A stretch of 15,320 nt of DNA from Anaeromyxobacter sp. (GTDB lineage: Bacteria; Myxococcota; Myxococcia; Myxococcales; Anaeromyxobacteraceae): NCBI GenBank assembly GCA_020028115.1, contig JAHWYA010000005.1, positions 1 through 15,320 on the forward strand, written 5' to 3'. Both the position numbers and the translations under genes were made by a program. The notes below the pieces were generated by a model, which searched no databases, was not told where the DNA came from, and saw only the letters and a program-made list of their open reading frames with translations. Shown here in pieces: positions 3 to 12,070 of this stretch. Each line of letters opens with the position of its first letter. Within the stretch, counting starts at the first letter, position 1.

Positions 3-209
3 CTCACCGAGTGCGCGAAGCCCGGCAAGACCGACTGCGACATCGTGGACACCTGCCTCGCGGGGAAGGCGAGCTGGGATCCGGTGTCGCGCGCGATCGA
101 GGACGCGCTCCGGGGCCTGCCGCTCTCCTCCATCGCACCCTTCCGCGCCGGCGAGCCCGAGCCCGAGCCCGAGGCCGCGCCGATCCGCATCGGAGCCCAC
201 GCGCCATGA
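3..209 (+). CDS. Rrf2-family transcriptional regulator, C-terminal part (5' end outside window)
   Basis: This is the 3' end of a gene read in the frame starting at base 3 and ending in TGA at 207-209. The visible 68 residues contain three cysteines spaced C-x7-C-x5-C (LTEC...DC...TC), followed by a Trp and an amphipathic helix ([21 protein letters not shown]). This matches the C-terminal half of Rrf2 regulators such as IscR, whose three Cys bind an Fe-S cluster. The tail ends in a Glu-Pro repeat ([11 protein letters not shown]). The DNA-binding winged helix is outside the window. The stop overlaps the sufB start (ATGA), so the gene is very probably the first member of the suf operon and senses Fe-S status to control it. 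The family assignment is an inference from the Cys spacing and the neighbour; the exact DNA target cannot be seen. Confidence 0.75.
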
Positions 210-1645
210 GCACGGCGGAGCAGCTCAAGGACCTGACGGAGCAGAAGTACCGCTACGGCTTCGTCACCGAGATCGAGGAGGACCGGATCCCGAAGGGCCT
301 GTCCGAGGAGATCATCCGTGTCATCTCGGAGAAGAAGGGCGAGCCCTCCTTCATGCTCGAGTGGCGGCTCAAGGCCTACCGGCACTGGCTCACCATGCAG
401 GAGCCGACCTGGGCGAACGTCCGCTACCCGAAGATCGACTACCAGGAGGTCGTCTACTACTCCGCCCCCAAGCAGAAGAGGGCGCTCGGCTCGATGGAGG
501 AGGTCGACCCCGAGCTCCGCAAGGCGTTCGGGAAGCTCGGCATCCCGCTCGAGGAGCAGATGCGCCTCGCGGGCGTCGCCGTCGACGCCGTCTTCGACTC
601 CGTCTCGGTCGCGACGACCTACAAGAAGAAGCTCGCGGACCTCGGGATCGTCTTCTGCTCGTTCTCCGAGGCGGTGCGCGAGCACCCGGCGCTCGTCGAG
701 AAGTGGCTCGGGTCGGTCGTGCCGTACACCGACAACTTCTTCGCGACCCTGAACAGCGCGGTCTTCTCGGACGGCTCGTTCGTCTACGTCCCGAAGGGCG
801 TGCGCTGCCCGATGGAGCTGTCGACGTACTTCCGCATCAACGCGAAGGACACCGGCCAGTTCGAGCGCACCCTCATCGTCGCCGACGAGGACGCCTACGT
901 CTCCTACCTCGAGGGCTGCACCGCCCCGCAGCGGGACGAGAACCAGCTCCACGCCGCGGTCGTCGAGCTCGTCGCGCTCGACGGCGCGCAGATCAAGTAC
1001 TCGACCGTCCAGAACTGGTACCCCGGCGACGCCGAGGGGAAGGGCGGCATCTACAACTTCGTGACGAAGCGCGGCAAGGCGATGGCCCGCTCGAAGCTCA
1101 GCTGGACGCAGGTGGAGACCGGCTCGGCGATCACCTGGAAGTACCCGTCCTGCATCCTCCAGGGCGACGACTCGGTGGGCGAGTTCTACTCGGTCGCGCT
1201 CACGAACCACCGCCAGCAGGCGGACACCGGGACGAAGATGATCCACATCGGGAAGAACACCCGCTCGACGATCATCTCGAAGGGCATCAGCGCCGGGCGC
1301 GGGCAGAACACCTACCGCGGCCTCGTGAAGATGATGAAGGGGGCGACCGGCGCCCGGAACTACTCGCAGTGCGACTCGCTCCTCATCGGCGATCGCTGCG
1401 GCGCCCACACGTTCCCGTACATCGAGGTGCGGAACCCGACCGCGAAGGTGGAGCACGAGGCGACCACCTCGAAGATCAGCGAGGACCAGCTCTTCTACTG
1501 CAAGCAGCGGGGCATCCCGGAGGAGGACGCGGTCTCGATGATCGTGAACGGGTTCGCGAAGCAGGTGCTGAAGGAGCTGCCGATGGAGTTCGCGGTGGAA
1601 GCGCAGAAGCTCCTCGGCATGTCGCTCGAAGGGAGCGTGGGCTGA
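206..1645 (+). CDS. sufB: Fe-S cluster assembly scaffold protein SufB
   Basis: SufB (479 aa, normal family length) forms the SufBC2D complex that builds Fe-S clusters in the cytoplasm. The start is ATG 206, overlapping the regulator stop, with GGAG at 192-195 upstream. An open frame continues further upstream but is not SufB-like. Conserved blocks are [28 protein letters not shown], the [12 protein letters not shown] motif with invariant Cys389 (E. coli C405), and [17 protein letters not shown] with His417/Glu418 (E. coli H433/E434). The 29-residue spacing of Cys to Glu is identical to E. coli. The C-terminus ends MSLEGSVG, as is typical. All key cluster-assembly residues are present, so it should be functional. 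The last codons are duplicated just downstream (see the repeat at 1601-1723). Confidence 0.97.
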
Positions 1646-1727: not shown

Positions 1728-2600
1728 ATGGCGAAGAGCGGCTGCAGGGAGAACGCGCTCCTCCGCGTGGAGGGGCTCCGGGCCCGGATCGCGGCTGGTC
1801 CCCGGACTTCCTCCGCCCCGCGAAGCGGGGCCGGGGAGGGGGACGGCGCCGAGATCCTGAAGGGCGTCGACCTCGAGCTGTGCCCCGGCGAGATCCACGC
1901 GATCATGGGGCCGAACGGCTCCGGCAAGTCGACCCTCGCCGGCGTGCTCGCGGGCCGCGACGCCTACGAGGTGACGGGCGGGACCGTGACCTACGCGGGG
2001 AAGGACCTGCTCGGCCTCGTGCCGGAGGCGCGCGCGGCGGCGGGCGTCTTCCTCGGCTTCCAGTACCCCGTCGAGATCCCCGGCGTCGGCAACCTCTACT
2101 TCCTGCGCACGGCGCTCAACGCGATCCGCCGCGCCCGCGGCGAGGAGGACCTCGACGCGATGGACTTCCTCTCGCTCGCGAAGGAGAAGATGCGCCTCGT
2201 CGAGCTCGATCCGGCCTTCGGCAGCCGGTCCCTCAACGAGGGCTTCTCCGGCGGCGAGAAGAAGCGGAACGAGGTCTTCCAGATGGCGGTCCTCGAGCCG
2301 CGCCTCGCGATCCTCGACGAGATCGACTCGGGGCTCGACATCGACGCCCTGCGGATCGTGGCGAAGGGCGTGAACGCGCTCCGCCGGCCGGACCGCGGCA
2401 TCCTCCTCGTCACCCACTACAAGCGGCTCCTCGAGTACGTCGAGCCGGATCGGGTCCACGTCATGGCGGGCGGCCGGATCGTCCGCTCCGGCGGCCCCGA
2501 GCTCGCCGAGGAGCTCGAGCGGACCGGCTACGCCTGGGTCGCCGGCATGCCGCCGGAGGCCGCCGCTGCCGCCGCCGCCGCCGGGGGAGCGCGCCGGTGA
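1728..2600 (+). CDS. sufC: Fe-S cluster assembly ATPase SufC
   Basis: SufC is the ABC-type ATPase that drives conformational change in SufBC2D. The 290-aa product is longer than the usual 250-260. Seen motifs are Walker A GPNGSGKST (61-69, Lys67), ABC signature FSGGEKKRNEVFQ (Ser174), Walker B ILDEIDSGLDIDAL (Glu198) and the H-loop LLVTHYKR. The Lys67-Glu198 spacing of 131 equals E. coli K40-E171. The extra length comes from about 17 residues encoded by a palindromic repeat in the turn between LRARIA and AEILKGVDLEL, and from an Ala-rich tail encoded by GCC repeats (around 2560-2582). The start is ATG 1728, with GAAGGGAG from the duplicated sufB tail (1708-1715) upstream. The stop overlaps the sufD GTG start (GTGA). 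Confidence 0.95.
   Translation: MAKSGCRENALLRVEGLRARIAAGPRTSSAPRSGAGEGDGAEILKGVDLELCPGEIHAIMGPNGSGKSTLAGVLAGRDAYEVTGGTVTYAGKDLLGLVPEARAAAGVFLGFQYPVEIPGVGNLYFLRTALNAIRRARGEEDLDAMDFLSLAKEKMRLVELDPAFGSRSLNEGFSGGEKKRNEVFQMAVLEPRLAILDEIDSGLDIDALRIVAKGVNALRRPDRGILLVTHYKRLLEYVEPDRVHVMAGGRIVRSGGPELAEELERTGYAWVAGMPPEAAAAAAAAGGARR
1799..1842 (+). repeat. 44-nt intragenic palindromic repeat, copy 1 (in sufC)
   Basis: The copy begins TCCCCGGACTTCC and has the core GCCCCGCGAAGCGGGGC (7-bp perfect stem, GAA loop). An outer pair TCCCCGG/CCGGGGA (1799-1805 with 1831-1837) flanks the core, and a GGGGG run closes the copy. It matches copy 3 in sufS at 41 of 44 positions and copy 2 in sufD in reverse orientation. 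It is translated in frame as PRTSSAPRSGAGEG, inserted in the N-terminal beta-turn of SufC, where homologues have only a few residues. Confidence 0.92.
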
Positions 2601-3952
2601 ACGCCGCCGAGACCAGCCTCGTCGCCGCCTTCGCGCCGCCGGCGCGCGAGCCCGCCTGGCTCGGCGAGGCGCGCCGAAGCGCGCTCGCGCGCTTCGAGGC
2701 GCTCGGGCTCCCCACCGCGCGCCACGAGGACTGGCGGTTCACCAGCCTCGCCGCGCTCGGCGCGCTCCCGTTCGCGCGCGCCCCCGCGGGCGATCCCGCC
2801 GTCGCCTCGGCGCTCCTCGCGCGCGGCGCGGCGCCGGAGGGGCCGCGCCTCGTCTTCGTGAACGGCCGGCTCGCGCCGGAGCTCTCGACCCGCGGCGGGC
2901 TCCCGCAGGGCGTGATCCTGTCGAGCCTCGCCGAGGCGCTCCGCGAGGTCCCGGAGAAGGTGCGGCCCCACCTCGGTCGCCTCGCGCGGCCCGAGGCGCA
3001 CGCCTTCACCGCGGCGAACGCGGCGCTCTTCGAGGACGGCGGCTTCGTCCTCCTGCCCCGCGGCGCGGCCATCGACGCGCCCCTCGCGCTCGTCTTCGTG
3101 ACCGACGCCCCCCCCCCAGCCCCGCTTCGCGGGGCAGAGGAGATCCGGGGACAAGCCGCCGCGGCGCCCGCCGCCGTCCACCCGCGCACGCTCGTCGTCG
3201 CCGAGGAGGGCGCCCGCGGGATCGTCGAGGAGGTCTTCGTGGGGCGCGGCGCGTCGCTCACGAACGCGGTGACCGAGCTCGTCCTCGCGGACGGCGCGAA
3301 GGTGGAGCACGTGCGGCTGCAGGTCGAGGGCCCCGACACCTTCCACGTCGGCGCCGTCCACGCGGAGCAGGGCGCGGAGGCCACGCTCGGCGCCCACGCG
3401 TTCTCGCTCGGCGCGCGGCTCTCGCGGTCGGAGCTCTGGTCGCGGCTCGCCGGGGAGGGCGGCGAGGTGCGCGCGAACGGCCTCTACATGGCGGACGGCG
3501 CGCGGATCTCCGACCACTTCACGTGGGTCGAGCACGCGGTGCCGCGCTGCACGACCGCGCAGACGTTCAAGGGGATCCTCGACGGCACCGCCCGCGGCGT
3601 GTTCTCCGGCCGCATCCGGGTGCTGCCCGGCGCGCAGAAGACGGTCGCCCACCAGCTCTCGTCGTCGCTCCTCCTGTCGGACGACGCGATCGCCGACACG
3701 AAGCCGCAGCTCGAGATCTTCGCGGACGACGTGAAGTGCGGCCACGGCGGCACGGTGGGGCAGCTCGACGAGGCGTCGCTCTTCTACCTGAGATCGCGCG
3801 GCGTCCCCGAGGCGGACGCGAAGAGCCTGCTCATCTGGGCGTTCGCGAGCGAGATGGTCGGGCTCGTCGGCGCGCCGGCGCTGCGCGCGCGCGCGAAGAA
3901 CCTCATCGCCGCCCGGCTCCCCGCGGGCGCGCGCATCCTGGAGGCGGCATGA
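2597..3952 (+). CDS. sufD: Fe-S cluster assembly protein SufD
   Basis: SufD is the SufB paralogue that completes the SufBC2D scaffold and is linked to iron acquisition. The start is GTG 2597, overlapping the sufC stop (GTGA), with GGGGGAG at 2583-2589. The product is 451 aa, against 423 in E. coli. Typical features are the N-terminal PTARHEDWRFTSL motif and the C-terminal DVKCGHGGTVGQLDEASLFYLRSRG block with His383, equivalent to E. coli His360. Part of the extra length is a palindromic-repeat peptide (PPPAPLRGAEEIRGQ) between LVFVTDA and the conserved HPRTLVVAEEGA strand, a position where homologues have a short loop. The same insertion contains a run of ten C. The stop overlaps the sufS ATG (ATGA). 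Confidence 0.94.
   Translation: MNAAETSLVAAFAPPAREPAWLGEARRSALARFEALGLPTARHEDWRFTSLAALGALPFARAPAGDPAVASALLARGAAPEGPRLVFVNGRLAPELSTRGGLPQGVILSSLAEALREVPEKVRPHLGRLARPEAHAFTAANAALFEDGGFVLLPRGAAIDAPLALVFVTDAPPPAPLRGAEEIRGQAAAAPAAVHPRTLVVAEEGARGIVEEVFVGRGASLTNAVTELVLADGAKVEHVRLQVEGPDTFHVGAVHAEQGAEATLGAHAFSLGARLSRSELWSRLAGEGGEVRANGLYMADGARISDHFTWVEHAVPRCTTAQTFKGILDGTARGVFSGRIRVLPGAQKTVAHQLSSSLLLSDDAIADTKPQLEIFADDVKCGHGGTVGQLDEASLFYLRSRGVPEADAKSLLIWAFASEMVGLVGAPALRARAKNLIAARLPAGARILEAA
3108..3151 (-). repeat. 44-nt intragenic palindromic repeat, copy 2 (in sufD, reverse orientation)
   Basis: Read on the - strand this begins TCCCCGGATCTCC, then the identical core GCCCCGCGAAGCGGGGC, and ends in a run of ten G. 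It has the same 44-nt extent as copies 1 and 3, with a few substitutions, and sits in the opposite direction to transcription. It still leaves the sufD frame open, encoding PPPAPLRGAEEIRG. The homopolymer lies at 3108-3117 on the + strand. Confidence 0.92.
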
Positions 3953-5286
3953 CGGCGGTGAAGAGCGAGCGGGAGGGGAGCGCCTGTCCCCGGACTTCCA
4001 CTGCCCCGCGAAGCGGGGCTGGGGAGGGGGTGGCCCAGCGGCGGATCGCCCCGGCGGAGCGGAGCGCGCGGTTCGACCCGGTCCGGGCGCGGGCCGACTT
4101 CCCCATCCTCCGCCAGAAGGTGCACGGCGCGCCGCTCGTCTACCTCGACAACGCCGCGACGACGCAGAAGCCGCGCGTCGTCCTCGACGCGATGACCCGC
4201 TACTACGAGGAGGCCAACGCGAACGTGCACCGCGGCGTGCACCTCCTCTCCGAGCGGGCGACGAAGGCGTACGAGGACGCCCGGCTCGCGGTCGCCCGCT
4301 TCATCGGCGCGCCGGACCCGCGCGAGGTGATCTTCGTCCGCGGCACGACCGAGGCGGTGAACCTCGTGGCGCAGACCTTCGGCCGCACGCGCGTCGGGCC
4401 GGGCGACGAGGTGCTCGTGACGGCGCTCGAGCACCACTCGAACATCGTCCCCTGGCAGATGCTCTGCCGGGAGAAGGGGGCGAGGCTCGCGGTGGTCCCG
4501 ATCGACGACGCCGGGGACCTCGACCTCGACGCCCTCGACCGGCTCCTCGGGCCGCGCACGCGCCTCCTCGCGGTGACCCAGGTCTCGAACGCGCTCGGGA
4601 CGGTGAACCCGCTCGACGAGATCGTCCGCCGCGCGCACGCGAAGGGCGTCCCGGTCCTCGTGGATGGCGCCCAGGGAATCCCGCACCGCGGGATCGACGT
4701 CGCCGCGTCCGGCGCCGACTTCTACGCGTTCAGCGCGCACAAGATGTACGGCCCGACCGGCATCGGCGTGCTCTGGGGCCGCCGCGAGCTCCTCGAGGAG
4801 CTGCCGCCCTGGCAGGGCGGCGGCGACATGATCCTGTCGGTCACCTTCGAGAAGACCGTCTACAACGCGCTGCCGTACAAGTTCGAGGCCGGGACGCCGG
4901 CGATCGCCGAGGCGGTCGGCCTCGGCGCCGCGGTCGAGTACCTCGAGCAGGCGGGGCTCGCGGAGGTCGCCGCGCACGAGCGGGACCTCCTCGCCTACGC
5001 GCTCGAGCGGCTCCGCGAGGTCCCGGACCTCCGGCTCGTCGGCACGCCGCGGGAGCGGTCCGGCGCGATCTCGTTCCTCGTGGGCGACGTCCACCCGCAC
5101 GACGTCGCCACGGTCCTCGACCGCCACGGCGTGGCAGTCCGCGCGGGCCACCACTGCGCGCAGCCCCTCATGCACCGGCTCGGCGTCGCCGCGACGGTGC
5201 GGGCGTCGGTCGCGCTCTACTCGACGCGCGAGGACGTGGACGCCCTCGTCCGCGCCCTCCACGCCGCCCGGGAGATGTTCGCCTGA
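3949..5286 (+). CDS. sufS: Cysteine desulfurase SufS
   Basis: SufS is a PLP-dependent class II cysteine desulfurase that converts cysteine to alanine and passes persulfide sulfur to its partner, here SufU. The product is 445 aa, against about 406 in E. coli. The PLP Lys is Lys265 in FSAHKMYGPTGIGVLWG and the catalytic Cys is Cys403 in RAGHHCAQPLMH. Both are shifted by exactly 39 from E. coli K226 and C364, so the surplus is an N-terminal extension ahead of FDPVRARADFPIL. That extension contains a palindromic-repeat peptide (PRTSTAPRSGAGEG). ATG 3949 overlaps the sufD stop and has GGAGG at 3940-3944. Starts nearer the family norm inside the extension cannot be excluded, but the operon overlap favours 3949. 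Confidence 0.95.
   Translation: MTAVKSEREGSACPRTSTAPRSGAGEGVAQRRIAPAERSARFDPVRARADFPILRQKVHGAPLVYLDNAATTQKPRVVLDAMTRYYEEANANVHRGVHLLSERATKAYEDARLAVARFIGAPDPREVIFVRGTTEAVNLVAQTFGRTRVGPGDEVLVTALEHHSNIVPWQMLCREKGARLAVVPIDDAGDLDLDALDRLLGPRTRLLAVTQVSNALGTVNPLDEIVRRAHAKGVPVLVDGAQGIPHRGIDVAASGADFYAFSAHKMYGPTGIGVLWGRRELLEELPPWQGGGDMILSVTFEKTVYNALPYKFEAGTPAIAEAVGLGAAVEYLEQAGLAEVAAHERDLLAYALERLREVPDLRLVGTPRERSGAISFLVGDVHPHDVATVLDRHGVAVRAGHHCAQPLMHRLGVAATVRASVALYSTREDVDALVRALHAAREMFA
3987..4030 (+). repeat. 44-nt intragenic palindromic repeat, copy 3 (in sufS)
   Basis: This copy begins TCCCCGGACTTCC with the core GCCCCGCGAAGCGGGGC and ends in GGGGAGGGGG. It differs from copy 1 at 3 of 44 bases and is read in the same frame, giving PRTSTAPRSGAGEG. 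It lies in the N-terminal extension of SufS, upstream of the first conserved residue of the family. Confidence 0.92.
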
Positions 5287-11915: not shown

Positions 11916-12070
11916 CCGCACCTGGACCTGGTCCTGGACCTGGACCTGGTCCTCGACCTCGTCCTGGTCCTGGTCCTGGAACCGGTCCACCCGGTTCGAG
12001 GTCGAGGTCCACGTCGAGGTCGAGGTCGAAGTCGAGGTCGAAGTCCACGTCCAGGCCCCGCGCGGCCTAG
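11912..12070 (+). CDS. Low-complexity Pro-Gly / Ser-Arg repeat ORF (52 aa), coding status doubtful
   Basis: An ORF starting ATG 11912 overlaps the dehydrogenase stop (ATGA) and ends TAG 12068-12070. It would encode a Pro-Gly dipeptide block, PGPGPGPGPGPRPRPGPGPG, then a basic Ser-Arg/Ser-Lys block, SRSRSTSRSRSKSRSKSTSR. The overlap resembles the start of a coupled gene. However, the DNA consists of hexanucleotide repeats that form a long hairpin at a convergent gene junction, which explains the open frame without selection on protein. I lean towards a non-coding structural repeat. Confidence 0.2.
   Translation: MTAPGPGPGPGPGPRPRPGPGPGTGPPGSRSRSTSRSRSKSRSKSTSRPRAA
11920..12060. repeat. Hexanucleotide-repeat inverted arms forming a long hairpin at a convergent junction
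   Basis: The left arm (about 11920-11978) is built from CCTGGW/CCTCGW hexamers. The right arm (about 11998-12055) is largely the reverse complement, with GAGGTC/GAAGTC units. The centre is a perfect hairpin GAACCGG-tccac-CCGGTTC (11979-11997). Outside the centre most bases pair, with mismatches recurring about every 6 nt. It lies between the ends of the dehydrogenase and the FHA gene and is a candidate bidirectional terminator. Confidence 0.75.

Follow-up and report, generated by a model that had tools for sequence, protein, structure and literature searches.

In the sources drawn on here, the described cases of palindromes lying in frame within functional proteins come from Rickettsia and from scattered intragenic REPs. 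Rickettsia palindromic elements (RPEs) are palindromes inserted in frame in genes, and each RPE encodes a conserved peptide, according to the description in PMC10969869. REPs are mostly intergenic in the account of PMC3733652, which lists genes for UvrD/REP helicases, tRNA synthetases and DNA repair proteins as hosts of intragenic copies and knows of no enzyme for the CGTC type. TnpA-REP is described as usually cutting at a CT dinucleotide adjoining the hairpin (PMC8266576), and enterobacterial RU elements, a further kind of small repeat, are given as 103-168 bp long (PMC2759123).

A 48-nt palindrome of comparable habit was found in a draft genome of Anaeromyxobacter sp., a soil bacterium; the draft comprises 2,971,250 bases in 597 contigs and is 66.6% complete. 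The window, that is, the whole stretch of 15,320 nucleotides that was analysed, is contig C156 of this draft and carries sufB, sufC, sufD and sufS, four genes that are open and recognisable. The genes and the element copies within them are as follows.

206 to 1645, forward strand: sufB, insert-free (Pfam SUFBD_core, 278 bits; named by family and operon context)
1728 to 2600, forward strand: sufC, host gene (ABC_tran; the top solved matches are SufC)
1795 to 1842, forward strand: element copy in sufC, codons 23-39, peptide AGPRTSSAPRSGAGEGD (covariance model R1, 69.3 bits)
1815 to 1831, forward strand: core hairpin of the sufC copy, GCCCCGC-GAA-GCGGGGC
2597 to 3952, forward strand: sufD, host gene (SUFBD_core, 259 bits; the top solved matches are SufD)
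3108 to 3155, reverse strand: element copy in sufD, in reverse orientation, codons 171-187, peptide APPPAPLRGAEEIRGQA (covariance model R1, 72.6 bits)
3119 to 3135, reverse strand: core hairpin of the sufD copy
3949 to 5286, forward strand: sufS, host gene (Aminotran_5, 506 bits; named by family and operon context)
3983 to 4030, forward strand: element copy near the sufS start, codons 12-28, peptide ACPRTSTAPRSGAGEGV (covariance model R1, 71.5 bits)
4003 to 4019, forward strand: core hairpin of the sufS copy

An earlier note on this DNA had reported three repeats with an identical core in sufC, sufD (reversed) and sufS, each in frame within an unbroken coding sequence. The repeats are present, their frames and peptides are as it described, and the 17-nt core GCCCCGCGAAGCGGGGC is the same in all three. 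The extent of 44 nt given there had to be corrected, since it misses four 5′ bases (CTGG, CTTG or CCTG): the repeat unit is 48 nt, as measured both by the repeat period of tandem copies at other genomic sites and by the net gap in Era and MurA against eight of eight congeners each. The consensus of the unit is CTTGTCCCCGGACCTCCNTCGCCCCGCGNAGCGGGGCTGGGGAGGGGG. Its first bases mostly follow the pattern CTT or CTC, then G; over 22 sites the first three bases were CTT in 13, CTC in four, CAC in two, and CTG, CCT and TTC in one each, so that the 5′ end is CT at 18 of 22. A G precedes the element at 17 of 22 sites and a C succeeds it at 17 of 22 (P ~1.5e-4 each against base composition), counts that include two left and two right flanks at tandem junctions; with these removed, the figures were 15/20 on each side (P ~6e-4). 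Since the flanking G and C could reflect a target preference or belong to the element itself, the position of its ends is known to within about one base.

Two of the suf copies share one orientation and the third is opposite, which does not indicate a strict strand bias. The note had also stressed the clustering of the copies in one operon. The cluster itself stands, because three sites inside 2232 nt are improbable under random placement in 2.97 Mb (P 0.0018 with 20 sites, 0.0034 with 24), and local reinsertion is a possible source of it; the family as a whole, however, is not confined to suf and occupies 22 sites. Within the same window, two other repeats were observed. A second copy of the sufB 3′ end lies 80 nt downstream of the first, ahead of sufC (1618-1725); at the corresponding position there are three copies 77 nt apart in one congener (G001, L045), two in another (G005, L050) and one in the other six. 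At 11921-12055 lies a long imperfect inverted repeat with 65-nt arms, a 5-nt spacer and 78% complementarity, composed of short repeated units of the ACCTGG/CGAGGT type. Rfam gave no match at the gathering score within the window.

The distribution of the element was assessed by pattern scans and by a covariance model built from 22 copies, with the best 150 first-look candidates scored per genome. In its own genome, the 17-nt core with one mismatch allowed matched 20 times, against two for the reversed control, and a 45-nt pattern with up to three mismatches matched 21 times, against none for its reversed control, which rules out a chance origin of the repeat. The model placed 24 copies at 22 sites among those candidates (E <= 4e-7), so that the repeat does occur elsewhere in the genome, as the note's proposed whole-genome search was meant to establish. 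The 45-nt pattern had no match at the same tolerance in 59 other genomes of the genus, family and order, and exact pattern scans of genome_contigs and viral_contigs, collections from which records near this genome are possibly absent, were equally empty. With the best 150 candidates scored in each, the model found just three weak matches in the eight congeners (one each in G001, G002 and G005, 29.9 bits) and five in 15 further family genomes (three in G011, one each in G009 and G015, 30.1-34.3 bits), giving eight matches with a top score of 34.3 bits in the 23 together. These were considered as copies of the element and rejected, since by eye they resemble other G+C-rich palindromes. The genome of G011, from another genus of the same family, carries a few different G+C-rich palindromes, of the CCTCGCCCCGCGGAGCGGGGAGAGGGCCGGGGAGAGGG type in L166 and L167 and also in L163, which possibly form a separate repeat family of its own. 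Among named genomes, SufD was matched at four loci, the close two being those of Anaeromyxobacter terrae SG22 (64% identity) and A. soli SG29 (66%), which by itself makes Anaeromyxobacter the very probable genus. No report of the element appeared among the papers listed for the name Anaeromyxobacter, which says little, as the name occurs in just one of those listed.

Some copies occur next to each other. Head-to-tail pairs were found at C189 and C355 and partial extra copies at C115 (contig end) and C183, all in the 48-nt register, and the neighbouring copies at C355 and C183 have common variants that are absent from other copies, from which we infer that tandem copies arose by local duplication. 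In the tandem variant at C183 (L112), the core hairpin reads CCCTCGC-GGA-GCGAGGG, with two compensatory changes, and the variant may represent a subfamily.

Comparison with congeners covered the SufC, SufD, SufS, Era, MurA, TrpE and GspH sites. In Era and in MurA, all eight congeners have an empty site with a net difference of 48 nt every time, and no target-site duplication was visible at either insert against these eight. The insert is likewise absent from SufC and SufD in 8/8 congeners; these relatives do not, therefore, keep the same residues with unrelated DNA, as the earlier note had considered they might. Here the net difference for SufC was 45 nt in three congeners and 51 nt in five, and for SufD it was 48 nt in three and 51 nt in five, a variation due to flanks that also differ among congeners, so the exactness of insertion rests on Era and MurA. 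At all four genes, the flanks match the congener orthologues on either side. The SufS insert had been placed in an N-terminal extension, and the extension is indeed there and variable among congeners, so that no border is definable for SufS; the alignments gave an exact gap, free of visible target duplication, for Era and MurA, and borders blurred by the flanks for SufC and SufD. At the TrpE-TrpG junction, where four of eight congeners aligned, the sequence was too variable for borders, and the leader of the GspH-like gene was too variable for an exact empty site, although its G-FTLIEL junction is clear. The inserted segments are extra residues with respect to solved MurA, Era, LeuRS and SufD (E. 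coli SufD). An AlphaFold model of SufD from five sequences reached a mean pLDDT of 50.2, with the insert region below 50, and was uninformative.

The consensus folds into three helices with 17 pairs in total, leaves three bases (mostly CTT) unpaired at its 5′ end and has outermost paired arms of ~6 bp. Over the 24 copies, 97.3% of cells were paired, and this fell to 53-69% when the fold was slid along the alignment. Double-sided changes were seen in 5/17 pairs, against a shuffled mean of 0.6 (reached in 0/500 shuffles), two core pairs being swapped in the C183 copy, though the fold slid by -2 likewise has five double-change cells and the RNAalifold covariation term was small (-0.44). As single-stranded DNA, both strands of the consensus folded somewhat better than shuffles (z -1.5 and -2.1), as did the three window copies (z -1.1 to -2.9). 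The hairpin is kept, imperfect and with a few compensatory changes, and the covariation, five single cells, is thin.

Outside the window, host genes were named from open frames, codon use and Pfam/NCBIfam matches rather than from annotation. They are listed below by the position of the element.

Inside reading frames: SufC, SufD, SufS, a PcrA/UvrD-type helicase, leucyl-tRNA synthetase, LarC, MurA, Era, an AraC-family regulator and an acyl-CoA dehydratase activase (degenerate copy, 47 bits)
At N-termini or in leaders: GspH-like, GspG-like, a YcaO protein (two copies) and a sigma-70 family protein
At C-termini: an FtsE-like ABC protein (named by context for an ABC_tran match), TrpE-like (two copies), RuvC (tandem, contig end), an amidase (copy and partial copy), a Pol III delta-like protein (match of 24.6 bits, below the Pfam cut-off of 27) and a pterin-binding enzyme whose stop codon is supplied by the element copy
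At a contig end: a copy in a DUF3106 protein
On C454: a degenerate copy directly upstream of an EF-G-like GTPase gene

Some of these hosts are genes that are usually essential. The start codons of SufS, the GspG-like protein, the YcaO protein and the sigma factor are putative, and the element there could lie in 5′ untranslated sequence. In the GspH-like pseudopilin (L096 127-175, C376), the element sits exactly between Gly(-1) and Phe(+1), with the Gly before FTLIEL rebuilt, a junction that we take, by the prepilin cleavage rule, to be the prepilin cleavage site; in the GspG-like gene (L108), a copy lies directly upstream of the leader motif.

The count inside versus between genes that the note had called for gave 21 of 22 sites in an ORF or at an ORF end. 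Compared with a coding density of 0.946, taken from 16 hand-chosen ORFs of the window, this means that genes are not avoided. Of the 20 placed ORF sites, 12 fell within 40 codons of a gene end, against 27% expected (P 0.002), with ends and interiors sorted by hand and the 40-codon limit set after the sites were seen; the excess suggests filtering of copies in gene interiors. The element is used in both orientations and in all six frames, distributed as follows.

Frame +0: LarC, TrpE-like (both copies), RuvC
Frame +1: GspH-like, FtsE-like, YcaO (both copies)
Frame +2: SufC, SufS
Frame -0: MurA, Era
Frame -1: GspG-like, sigma factor, DUF3106, pterin-binding enzyme
Frame -2: SufD, PcrA/UvrD-type helicase, LeuRS, AraC family, CoA activase, amidase, Pol III delta-like

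With every frame in use, no common peptide is kept. The element was stop-free in all six frames in 21/24 copies; since 38% of shuffles and 39% of the 48-nt stretches of the window are equally open, stop-freedom is a permissive property and not proof of selection.

These results altogether are best explained by a mobile palindrome, exactly 48 nt long, lineage-specific and non-autonomous, that is tolerated in frame and may be processed in trans by an HUH enzyme, a reading to which we give a probability of about 0.72. Taken by itself, the case for a mobile palindrome of the non-autonomous sort is strong, and the HUH step by itself falls below even odds. Mobility is read here from one genome and from the empty sites of its congeners, no strain-to-strain polymorphism of the sites having been seen, and the inserted peptides are predicted from open frames. 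A recipient gene would gain, from a nearly stop-free unit of 3 x 16 nt, 16 codons of Pro/Gly/Ala/Arg-rich linker and would still work. Because the unit has this length, is nearly always stop-free and leaves genes that survive its insertion, copies would build up in coding sequence roughly in proportion to the part of the genome that it occupies, and would be filtered more strongly in gene interiors than at gene ends. The hairpin may be handled as single-stranded DNA by a Y1/HUH enzyme acting in trans, as in REP/RAYT systems, with the 5′ CTTG standing where a guide tag would be; this is the weakest step of the scheme. Such an enzyme would be encoded in the third of the genome that the draft lacks, or its gene would already have been lost. 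No Y1_Tnp match was found in the genome, which is weak evidence given a completeness of 66.6%. Seven of eight congeners, which are without this repeat, have a Y1_Tnp match over the cut-off of 23 bits, but all the matches are weak (21.4-26.8 bits), and by eye the repeated words at 20 of 28 such loci were unlike the element.

Spread of the same kind of element by a route other than HUH, for instance through templated repair or through synthesis of retron or phage origin, is the most serious competitor, a real possibility that we nevertheless hold to be short of an even chance. It would account for the missing Y1_Tnp match and has a counterpart in the CGTC REPs reported in PMC3733652 as having no association with a transposase gene. 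No positive evidence for any such route was obtained, however, and an exact, duplication-free insertion together with a hairpin carrying an unpaired 5′ tag fits the processing of single-stranded DNA. A classical MITE, that is, the remnant of a DDE-transposase insertion sequence that has lost its interior and is mobilised in trans by the transposase in question, is unlikely, even if a short, dispersed element without coding capacity of its own and found in one species only is what such a remnant would look like. The Era and MurA gaps of exactly 48 nt leave no visible target-site duplication, and the outermost paired arms are merely ~6 bp. Moreover, no longer relative appeared among the 18 exact matches of the left end CTYGTCCCCGGA, 16 of which are elements; the other two, without the remaining element, were examined as longer relatives and were unrelated by eye.

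That the copies are kept for a host function of the hairpin or peptide, in mRNA stability, translational pausing or as a protein linker, is a shade less probable still than a MITE. The kept hairpin with its compensatory changes and the three copies in one operon (P 0.002-0.003) would suit such a function, but compensatory changes would be no less expected of a hairpin that serves the mobility of the element, and six frames yield six unrelated peptides in functionally unrelated genes. The 21 of 22 ORF sites are what random insertion predicts, and the preference for gene ends (12/20, P 0.002, with the limit chosen afterwards) is expected from the filtering of harm. An assembly or contamination artefact, in which an adapter-like oligonucleotide was joined into contigs, is highly improbable: the draft is fragmented into 597 contigs, and on two of these (C115, C436) the copy is at the contig end, but copies differ among themselves, the frame is open at 21/22 sites, and the SufC, SufD, Era and MurA flanks match congener orthologues on both sides.

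Returning to the mobile palindrome, a bolder form of this reading may tentatively be entertained, although we incline against it, in which the length of the element (3 x 16, preserved even in tandem) and its six-frame stop-freedom were shaped by selection for insertion anywhere. If so, the element could insert on either strand and in any frame of a 95%-coding genome and spread nearly at random through essential genes (Era, MurA, LeuRS, the PcrA-type helicase), seeding new 16-residue segments. The old question of whether such insertions are harmless passengers or raw material for new protein parts can here be put to a direct test in isogenic pairs that differ by the 16 residues, because the element was found in one species only, exact empty sites exist in congeners and the element sits in enzymes with solved relatives.

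As far as the published descriptions used here allow, the element resembles MITEs and other small mobile repeats, such as RU elements, in being small, dispersed and sometimes intragenic, and differs from them in having no target duplication at two exact empty sites (Era, MurA) and no terminal inverted repeats of 15-30 bp. For the same reasons, the label MITE-like used in the earlier note gives way to REP/RPE-like, its interpretation being otherwise supported overall. With the described intragenic REPs, tagged GTAG or CGTC, it shares short imperfect palindromes, a hairpin that is indeed short and imperfect (97.3% of cells paired, with thin covariation), grouped copies and overlapping types of host gene; unlike them, it lies at or in ORFs at 21/22 sites, has few copies (24 found) and carries no GTAG or CGTC terminal tetranucleotide at any of the 22 sites. 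It is like the REP/RAYT systems, as described, in its short 5′ tag followed by a bulged hairpin, in its CT start at 18/22 sites and in the missing target duplication at the two exact sites (Era, MurA), and unlike them in that no RAYT gene was found in its own genome (66.6% complete). The likeness to RPEs, compared by description only, concerns the mode of life, and to that extent the parallel drawn in the note holds: a dispersed palindrome lies in frame in genes of unrelated function that are apparently unbroken, and it is absent from the orthologues of Era, MurA, SufC and SufD in eight congeners each. The parallel ends at the peptide, which is conserved in RPEs according to PMC10969869, whereas the 48-nt element uses six frames; it is also shorter (48 nt against ~150 bp), in a G+C-rich, non-rickettsial host. 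Since it has neither the REP tag nor the conserved peptide of RPEs, we file the 48-nt element as a new family of the general RPE/REP kind that is a member of neither.
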